A stretch of 19,133 bases of DNA from contig MNYV01000148.1 in the NCBI GenBank assembly GCA_001873285.1, forward strand, positions 1 to 19,133. The letters are read 5' to 3'. How positions within the stretch are numbered: the first letter of the stretch is position 1; the number at the start of each line of letters is the position of its first letter. The position numbers and the translations under genes are program-made. The notes under the pieces are model-generated. The model was given only the letters and a program-made list of their open reading frames with translations, searched no databases and was not told the origin of the DNA. The DNA is from Nitrospirae bacterium CG2_30_53_67 (GTDB lineage: Bacteria; CG2-30-53-67). This document shows positions 5,695-18,596 of the stretch, piece after piece.

Positions 5695-5858
5695 AGTGGC
5701 ACTATTCGTAAATACGGTGGCATTCGAGTACCGTATGGCGGCCGGGTCAAAGTTGCGCTCCTTGCGGTGTACCGGAGGGGTACGCCTCAGCCGCACGCCT
5801 TGATGAGACCACCCTACGACCCTCTCGGTACGTCACCATATTTACGAACAGGGCCACT
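5695..5858. mobile_element. repeat element copy A (164 bp, terminal inverted repeats), MITE-like
   Basis: The left end AGTGGCACTATTCGTAAATA and the inverse of the right end, AGTGGCCCTGTTCGTAAATA, match at 18 of 20 positions and the symmetry continues a few bases inward (GGTG). The sequence is non-coding. It is about four-fifths identical, in inverted orientation, to the element at 13933-14097 in the rplP-rpmC gap. If the element is trimmed by one base at each side it is flanked by TTA on both sides, a possible short target duplication. It lies between infA and rpmJ and disrupts neither. Confidence 0.7.
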
Positions 5859-7616: not shown

Positions 7617-8930
7617 TCAGCGCCCGCTCCGTCCATGAATCCTCCCCTTCTTCAAAAAGCCGTCATATTGGCGCTGCAGAAGATGGGATTCGATCTGTCT
7701 CAAGGTATCGAGCGCCACACCCACAACAATGAGAAGGGACGTCCCCCCGAAGTAGAAGGGGATGTTCAGCTCCTGGATCAAAAACATCGGAAGCACACAG
7801 ACCGCCGAAAGATAAAGGGCCCCGACAAAGGTGATCCTGCTCAGGACTTTGTCAAGGTAGTCCGATGTATTCTTCCCAGGCCGGAGTCCCGGGATAAACC
7901 CCCCCTGCTTCTTCATGTTTTCGGCCACGTCCACGGGATTGAACATCACCGCCGTATAAAAAAAAGTAAAAAAAATGATAAATCCTACATAGAGGATCAT
8001 ATAAACCAGACTCCCCGGGCTCAGACTCCCGGCCACCGCCTGCATCCAGGGATGATGAATCACCTGGGCGATGGTCGCCGGGAAGAGGATGATCGAAGAG
8101 GCGAAGATCGGCGGGATCACGCCCGCGGTATTGATCTTCAACGGGATATGGGTATCCGTGCCGCCATAGGCCTTGCGGCCGACCACCCGCCGCGCATACT
8201 GGACCGGCACCTTTCTATGCCCCTGTTCCATAAAGATGATGGCCCCTGTCACCAAAACGATCAGCAGCAGGATGACCAGAACCACATAAGGCTGCATGAT
8301 CCCTCCCCGGACCAAGGTCGCGGTTTGGGCCGCGGCAGAGGGCATGGCCGCCACAATCCCTGCAAAGATGATCAGGGAGATCCCGTTCCCGATCCCCTTC
8401 TCGGTGATCTGTTCACCGAGCCACATGATGAAGGCCGTTCCCGCCACCAGGGTGATCACGGTGAAGATCAGGTATCCGGGTCCGGGGTGGATCACGATGG
8501 GGGCGCCGCCCGGACTCGTGGTGCTCTGAAGGCCGACGGCAATGCCGGCGCCCTGTATGATGCTGAGAAGGATCGTTCCATACCGGGTGTACTGCGTGAT
8601 CTTTTTCCGTCCCGCCGCCCCTTCCTTGGCCAACTGCTCAAGACTCGGCACCACCGATGTCAGGAGCTGCAGGATGATCGAGGCGCTGATGTACGGCATG
8701 ATCCCCAAGGCAAAGACCGTCATACGGCTCAGCGCCCCGCCGGAGAACATGCTCACGAATCCGAGAATTCCCCCCTCCTGAGACTGGAAGAACTCGGAGA
8801 GGGCCTTTGAATCTATTCCCGGGATCGGGACATGACACCCTACCCTGTAAATCGCCAGAAACCCGAGTGTGAAAAGGATCCTTCTCTTTAATTCAGGAAC
8901 CTTGAAAATGTTCTGCAGGCTCTCTAACAA
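7617..8930 (-). CDS. secY: preprotein translocase channel subunit SecY
   Basis: A 437-residue inner-membrane channel of the Sec translocon with ten predicted membrane spans. Landmarks are [52 protein letters not shown], the [23 protein letters not shown] loop, [11 protein letters not shown], and [25 protein letters not shown] with LPFYF-like [17 protein letters not shown] near the end. The start is placed at a TTG (8930) with GGAGAT 4 nt upstream, which gives the family N-terminus (LESLQNIF). An ATG at 8969 would add 13 residues but has no Shine-Dalgarno and abuts a repeat tract. It follows rplO across a ~270-nt gap filled with G-rich repeats. Confidence 0.96.
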
Positions 8931-8970: not shown

Positions 8971-9182
8971 TAGTGGGTAAAAAGGGTTCGAGGGTTGAAG
9001 ATCCATAGGGTTCCAGGGGTCGAGGGGTCAAGGGTTCAAGTGAGATACTGAAACGCAAGCAAAATTTTCAGAGATAAATACTGGAACCCTTGACCCCTAG
9101 GACCCTCGGCCCCTTATGTTTTTAGCACTTCACTTGACCCCTGGAATCCTTGACCCCTTGACCCCTGATGTCTTCACCCACT
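8971..9182. repeat. G-rich degenerate heptad-like inverted-repeat tract between secY and rplO
   Basis: The left half (8971-9042) is made of variants of GGGTTC(G/A)A and GGGGTCA/GGGGTCGA; the right half (9081-9182) has the reverse complements (TTGACCCC, TTGAACCC-like). The outer ends are AGTGGGT (8971-8977) and its exact inverse ACCCACT (9176-9182). The unit TTGACCCC recurs several times. No ORF. A related tract lies in the rplC-rpsJ gap. It may be a decayed inverted-repeat element or a simple repeat expanded by slippage; which is uncertain. Confidence 0.65.
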
Positions 9183-13731: not shown

Positions 13732-13929
13732 TCAACGAAGGCCTTTCAATTTTTCTTTCCGAATTGTGTTGACCCGCGCAATGTCTTTCCGGGCCTCCCG
13801 AATGCGCGCCGGACTGCTCATCTGCCCGGTCTCCTTCTGAAACCGCAGGTTGAGAAGTTCTGACAGCAGTTCCTTTTCCTTGGCATCGATCTCCTCGATG
13901 CTTAAATCCCTGATCTCTGAAGCTTTCAT
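13732..13929 (-). CDS. rpmC: 50S ribosomal protein L29
   Basis: A 65-residue helical hairpin protein at the exit tunnel rim, near the SRP and trigger-factor docking site. Landmarks are [33 protein letters not shown] and [14 protein letters not shown]. The ATG at 13929 uses AAAAGGA 8 nt upstream; this Shine-Dalgarno lies inside the terminal repeat of element copy B that separates it from rplP. It precedes rpsQ by one nucleotide. Confidence 0.98.
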
Positions 13930-13932
13930 CTA

Positions 13933-14097
13933 AGTGGTCCTTTTCGTAAATATGGTGACGCACCGAGAGGGTCGCAGGGGCGGTTCATCAAGGCACGTGA
14001 CCGAGGCGTACCCTCTGTGGCACGCCGCAGGGAGCGTAACGAAGATAAGCCGGCCCTGCGGCACTCGAATGCCAACGTATTTACGAAACGGGCCACT
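13933..14097. mobile_element. repeat element copy B (165 bp, terminal inverted repeats), MITE-like
   Basis: It has the same terminal repeats as the copy at 5695-5858: AGTGGTCCTTTTCGTAAATA at the left end and the inverse of AGTGGCCCGTTTCGTAAATA at the right. Interior segments such as ACCGAGAGGGTCG, TCATCAAGGC, GAGGCGTACCC and ACTCGAATGCCA are shared with the reverse complement of copy A. It fills the rplP-rpmC gap completely: its right end overlaps the rplP TAG stop at 14096-14098 and its left end contains the rpmC Shine-Dalgarno. Non-coding. Confidence 0.7.
13938..13944 (-). promoter_or_regulatory. rpmC Shine-Dalgarno embedded in repeat element copy B
   Basis: AAAAGGA on the minus strand, 8 nt before the rpmC ATG. 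The matching place in copy A reads ACAGGGC, so the purine-rich site is a feature of this copy. Confidence 0.65.
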
Positions 14098-14515
14098 ATG
14101 CAACCACCCCATGTTTGGAAATAATCTTCGTCTTGATCGGGAGCTTGCTGGCCGCCCGGTTCAGGGCATCCATCGCGATCTGCTCGGTGACGCCCTCCAT
14201 CTCATAGAGAATTCTGCCGGGCTTCACCACCGCCACGTGATATTCAGGAGCGCCTTTGCCTTTGCCCATGCGGGTCTCCGCCGGTTTTTTGGTGACCGGC
14301 TTGTCCGGGAAAATCCGGATCCAGATCTTGCCGCCCCTCTTGACATAGCGTGTCATGGCAATTCGGGCCGCCTCAATCTGCTTACTCGTGATCCAGCCCA
14401 TCTCCAGGGCCTGGAGCCCGTATTCCCCAAAATCAATGCTGACCCCGCCTTTGGCCTTCCCTCGGGCCCTTCCCTTCATCTGTTTTCTATATTTCTCTTT
14501 CTTGGGCATCAACAT
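14096..14515 (-). CDS. rplP: 50S ribosomal protein L16
   Basis: A 139-residue protein at the tRNA corridor and the base of the central protuberance. Landmarks are [59 protein letters not shown] and [20 protein letters not shown]. The C-end is [10 protein letters not shown]. The final codon and stop read GCA-TAG-TGG, where AGTGG is the terminus of the copy-B repeat element, so the element supplies the AG of the stop codon. ATG at 14515 with GGAG 10 nt upstream. It follows rpsC by 57 nt. Confidence 0.98.
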
Positions 14516-18461: not shown

Positions 18462-18493
18462 TGTTTTTACTTCTCCAGCTTCTTCAATATATG

Positions 18494-18596
18494 AGGGTTC
18501 AAGGGTTCAAGTAAAAGACCGGAACAAACGCTGGAAAGAAAGCGCTTGGACCCTTGACCCCTGGGCCCCTCGGCCCCTTGTATCTTGACCCCTGTG
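18494..18596. repeat. G-rich heptad-like repeat tract between rplC and rpsJ
   Basis: The left part (18492-18511) has GAGGGTTCAAGGGTTCAAG; the right part (18545-18596) has the inverse type (CTTGGACCC, TTGACCCC twice). The block 18545-18581 matches 32 of 37 positions of 9081-9117 in the secY-rplO gap, same strand, so the two tracts are related. No ORF and no stable coding signal. Confidence 0.65.

Follow-up and report, generated by a model that had tools for sequence, protein, structure and literature searches.

An inverted-repeat element between rplP and rpmC spares the rplP stop codon and offers rpmC a candidate Shine-Dalgarno sequence

Prokaryotic MITEs, for example, RUP, Correia/NEMIS, Nezha, and ERIC, were reviewed in 2024 (PMC10969869); the terms “stop codon” and “ribosome” have no occurrence in the main text of that review. 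Repeats supplying stop codons are already known from pneumococcal BOX elements, which, according to the relevant passages of PMC3049150, give a stop codon to 36 annotated genes. A target of the form C|TNA|G has been described for NuwaII, within the PIF-Harbinger-IS5 superfamily (PHIS, PMC4482050). Here, we describe a repeat with a similar target that has inserted at the junction of two ribosomal-protein genes, and we evaluate its contribution to the stop codon of the upstream gene and to the Shine-Dalgarno (SD) sequence of the downstream gene.

The window, meaning the whole stretch of 19,133 nucleotides analyzed here, corresponds to contig 148 in a draft genome of 2.36 Mb (G000) and encodes the S10-spc-alpha ribosomal-protein cluster on its minus strand (Table 1). 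A 163-bp inverted-repeat element, copy B, parts rplP from rpmC, and the rpmC ATG comes straight after TTAG, which consists of the right target duplication and a G. In a genome of the same genus (G001), we observe an empty site: rplP ends in GGT GTA TAA, and the ATG of rpmC follows immediately, without a spacer. This empty site is orthologous, since rplP and rpmC share 86% and 89% DNA identity, respectively, between G000 and G001. The corresponding junction reads TAG ATG in G003, TAA A ATG in G005, and TAA ACG ATG in both G002 and G004, and joining the flanks of copy B without the element yields GCA TAG ATG. The original prediction, which regarded the repeat as an insertion, is therefore borne out by the sister-genome comparison, the stop of the uninserted G001 junction directly abutting the rpmC start. 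Scans for promoters and terminators near the junction returned none on the operon strand, and an Rfam scan of the window matched no family.

Table 1. Features of the rplP-rpmC junction and of the two element copies in the window.
Feature	Position	Strand	Basis or remark
rplP (ribosomal protein uL16)	14096..14515	-	ORF; homologues in 8/8 genomes searched
rplP stop TAG	14096..14098	-	T and A are target DNA; G is the first base of the element
Left target duplication, ATA (likely TTA before decay)	14097..14099	-	3-bp TWA duplication in the family
Copy B of the MITE, 163 bp, GTGGCCCGTTTCG...CGAAAAGGACCAC (minus strand)	13934..14096	-	nhmmer and alignment with 74 other full-length copies
AAAAGGA, putative rpmC Shine-Dalgarno	13938..13944	-	Consensus here AACAGGA; C to A at 13942
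Right target-site duplication TTA	13931..13933	-	Next base, G (13930), belongs to the native CTTAG-like target
rpmC (ribosomal protein uL29)	13732..13929	-	ORF; N-terminus and position conserved in G001
Copy A of the same MITE, between infA and rpsM	5696..5857	+	Touches neither gene's start nor stop

Copies A and B lie in opposite orientations and belong to a dispersed repeat family. A genome search with the 169 bases of the stretch in which the repeat was first noted returned 45 matches, roughly 40 of which were close to full length, and an internal probe of the element was found at 67 places. In all, 75 full-length copies were obtained, with 69 copies gathered in this genome and 20 in G001, from searches and the stretches around their matches. 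We also observe copy pairs with the same flanks on different contigs (L006/L007 and L021/L023, at contig ends), which suggests that contig ends in the draft assembly are broken or duplicated by the repeat and that the copy counts are approximate. The aligned copies open with GTGG and close with CCAC (full ends, GTGGCCC...GGACCAC). Their consensus is 162 bp long with 60% G+C, and its outer 24 positions pair as an inverted repeat except at positions 5, 9, and 20. Exact matches to the terminus number 105 in the genome versus none in a reversed control, so the terminal sequences are far beyond chance. The 3-bp flanks are identical in 55 of the 75 copies (TTA/TTA in 35, TAA/TAA in 19, and TGA/TGA in 1), and the duplication is preceded by C in 60 and followed by G in 66. 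Together, the identical TWA flanks and the outer C and G indicate a C|TWA|G target with a 3-bp duplication. A 5-bp CTWAG duplication is less likely, given that some copies, L025 for example, have retained these 3 bp but lack the outer C or G.

The element thus displays the typical properties of a MITE: it is short and bounded by terminal inverted repeats, it is flanked by a target-site duplication (with G001 empty sites of matching length), and it occurs in multiple dispersed copies without a transposase gene, for which 162 bp is too short. All six family genomes contain it, and it is absent from the 2 class-level relatives and the 52 more distant genomes searched. When the exact terminus was rechecked in the class-level genomes it was again absent, and it matched none of the viral contigs. 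On sequence grounds, we classify the element as non-autonomous, MITE-type, and restricted to one family of genomes, and we infer its mobility from the copies, duplications, and empty sites. A short derivative of the element with an internal deletion (L224, positions 7943-8021) is located in the ribosomal-protein cluster of G005. In addition, the window harbors another repeat family at positions 9005-9181 and 18493-18593, with units of the GGGGTCAAGGGTTCAAG type (read on the opposite strand as CTTGACCCCT) arranged in both direct and inverted orientation ahead of the secY and rplC genes.

The rplP gene ends in GCA-TAG, as had been read originally, and the AG of this stop was proposed to derive from an element terminus AGTGG. 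The G is indeed the first base of the element, but the A is target DNA, since the alignment of 75 copies places the boundary at GTGG/CCAC. Moreover, the stop evidently predates the insertion, because the rplP stop is TAA in G001, at the equivalent codon, and TAG in G003, where the rpmC ATG follows without a gap. The element's first base is identical to the G that previously stood in the rplP stop, and with TWA duplicated and this G following, the stop is rebuilt automatically. The view that the stop was co-opted from the element consequently does not hold: it was already there and was rebuilt, as at 17 other insertions. The difference between the left duplication, ATA, and the right, TTA, would amount to one decayed base, and the corresponding change from GCT to GCA would be synonymous; the mismatch nevertheless counts against the insertion account given below.

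At the other end of the element, AAAAGGA sits 8 nt upstream of the rpmC ATG, within the terminal repeat, in agreement with the original prediction. The family consensus at this terminus is CGAACAGGACCAC; AGGA is thus ancestral, and copy B is distinguished at this end by a single base, the C to A at 13942. For the earlier comparison, copy A is a poor yardstick, its AGGGC terminus being deviant from the family consensus. The anti-SD sequence, CCUCCUUU, was read from the 16S of family genomes, namely, G003 and G005 (16S tail, GGATCACCTCCTTTCT), as G000 and G001 yielded no 16S sequence. AAAAGGA is predicted to pair with it over 6 bases at -5.5 kcal/mol, the consensus terminus AACAGGA over 4 bases at -4.0 kcal/mol, and the copy A terminus, if placed in the rpmC position, at -3.1 kcal/mol. 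The joined flanks, representing the pre-insertion state, reach -5.8 kcal/mol and the G001 junction reaches -6.6 kcal/mol; the median of the 23 genes in the window is -6.1 kcal/mol. As judged from these pairings, the insertion moved the native SD, at the end of rplP, away from rpmC, and the terminus now offers a comparable SD, the only candidate for this gene. The ribosome presumably uses it; expression of rpmC from a downstream transcript, or through coupling, is conceivable.

Most copies do not carry AAAAGGA, which leaves standing the part of the original prediction that set copy B apart: among the 105 exact termini of this genome, it is found in copy B alone. Across the six genomes, a terminus has an ATG within reach at 17 places. 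The idea that termini often act as mobile SDs was rejected, with rpmC the sole verified gene start among the places read. One frame runs open into a contig edge (L017), and the others either are short or score poorly or, in L168, overlap a better-scoring gene on the opposite strand; apart from copy B, none of the copies was thus shown to provide an SD. We also observe that L164 in G000 and L206 in G001, the latter a truncated copy carrying AAAAGGA, are at a corresponding locus by their flanks (TTAGAGGGGGATGTGAGG and TTAGGGGGGGGATGTGAGG) and appear to represent a single insertion event that preceded the divergence of G000 and G001.

We propose the following account, to which we assign a probability of roughly 85%. 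A non-autonomous inverted-repeat element, which targets C|TWA|G and duplicates the central TWA upon transposition, entered a native rplP-TAG-ATG-rpmC junction. The duplication, together with the element's leading G, rebuilt the rplP stop and kept the rpmC start, while the old rpmC SD, located in the last rplP codons, was parted from the ATG and lost its use. The right terminus, whose AGGA is 8 nt away from where the restored target ends, would then have taken over as SD, and a later C to A change would have lengthened its pairing. The ribosome would now stop rplP at the TAG, at the foot of a hairpin, and start rpmC from AAAAGGA on the other arm.

A stronger reading of the last change was contained in the original prediction, which saw the terminus as domesticated: selection would have tuned it, through the C to A, into a better rpmC SD that compensates for the loss of the native one. 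The change does lift the predicted pairing close to its pre-insertion value, it is unique to copy B among the exact termini, and no copy other than copy B was shown to have a verified gene start at SD distance; adaptation of the terminus as the rpmC SD is possible. However, copy B is also the most diverged of the 75 full-length copies, differing from the consensus by 15.4% (25/162 positions), and 16 of these 25 differences are private or nearly so. Three of the 42 possible single changes near the SD reach copy-B strength, and the chance of such a change in copy B without selection is about 10%. The same C to A recurs in L206, where the gene start is too far for use as an SD, and in L188, a decayed copy containing GGAAAGGACCAC, there is no nearby gene start. 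Domestication in this sense is thus unlikely, and the change is more likely to have been neutral or under mild selection than to be a tuned adaptation. A further idea, compatible with the insertion account, concerns how rpmC is translated: the long stem may set the rplP stop beside the rpmC start, such that a stopping ribosome opens the base of the stem and frees the SD. The copy-B transcript is predicted to fold into one stem (-77 kcal/mol, z=-4.4), and in the folding model accessibility of the SD region increases from 0.34 to 0.57 when the stopping ribosome covers 12 nt past the stop. This effect is nevertheless modest and comes from a single thermodynamic model, and every copy has the stem, which therefore gives no sign of function at rplP-rpmC; we regard hairpin-bridged coupling as doubtful. 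If true, it would represent coupling across a long hairpin. Quite improbable, in our view, is the combination of all these effects in a portable gene junction, in which the duplication would rebuild the upstream stop, the element would bring the SD, and the hairpin would preserve rplP-rpmC coupling across 163 nt.

The repeat might also actively recognize stop codons as targets. A neighboring gene's stop codon lies within the duplication in 18 of the 75 full-length copies, many of them in essential genes; they include genes with products that read as DnaN, PyrD, ribonuclease III, RpoZ, NuoI, and an HU-like protein, with names assigned by reading the sequences rather than by family search. For five insertions (rplP, nuoI, pyrD, dnaN, and rpoZ), G001 has orthologous empty sites; the stop of the empty site is at the same codon in rplP, nuoI, pyrD, and dnaN, and rpoZ is three codons longer in G001. 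Yet the stop share of insertions is the same as that of the available non-coding CTWAG sites (18/75 versus 12/64; Fisher p=0.54), based on 277 kb biased to the neighborhoods of the copies and on gene calls from our own codon-usage caller (n=100 sites; 36 coding, 52 intergenic, and 12 on stops). Coding insertions, on the other hand, are depleted (2/75 versus 36/100 CTWAG sites; p=2e-8). The target consensus and the removal of coding insertions suffice, the stop-codon landings being as predicted by target plus purifying selection, and an active preference for stops is highly improbable.

According to the insertion account, a TWA-duplicating element with a leading G leaves TAA or TAG stops intact, and stop codons are hence safe landing sites in genomes with little spacer. 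This provides a simple reason for repeats settling within the most tightly packed essential operons. The rplP-rpmC junction also represents a clean natural test of how much the Shine-Dalgarno sequence and gene coupling matter. Several other insertions (L207, L167, L016, L030, and L201) are at a TAAGGAGG-like sequence just upstream of a start codon, where the duplicated TAA spares the gene's own SD, akin to the safe landing on stop codons. In L011, near position 1505 (G000:C101:18723-18891), an rnc-like gene ends in CGAAAAGGGCCAC-TTA, resembling the element terminus; an older element remnant may have fused to the 3' end of this gene and then been struck again.

No partner transposase with matching ends (GTGGNCCTRTTCG) was found in PF01609 and PF13359 searches of the six draft family genomes, which revealed eight PF01609 loci, all without matching ends, and no PF13359 loci. 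Because no transposase with the element's ends was found, we do not claim membership in IS5/PIF-Harbinger, and the resemblance is in the target only: the element makes the 3-bp TNA or TWA duplication of that superfamily, and NuwaII, with C|TNA|G, shows the same pattern, whereas the groups described in PMC4482050 are eukaryotic or have DDE transposases, none of which is seen here with matching ends. Like the prokaryotic MITEs reviewed in PMC10969869, the element is short and non-coding, has terminal inverted repeats and a target duplication, is present in tens of mostly intergenic copies, and gives a stable hairpin transcript. It differs from them in its 60% G+C, where those elements are A+T-rich, in its C|TWA|G target, and in that a partner transposase was not found. 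The BOX passages of PMC3049150 report no terminus acting as a downstream SD. The element resembles BOX in that a repeat ends genes, but in those passages the BOX stop is encoded by the repeat itself, whereas the rplP stop is rebuilt from duplicated target. The insertion is ordinary in sparing a stop codon; what is unusual is that the only visible Shine-Dalgarno sequence of an essential gene is transposon DNA.
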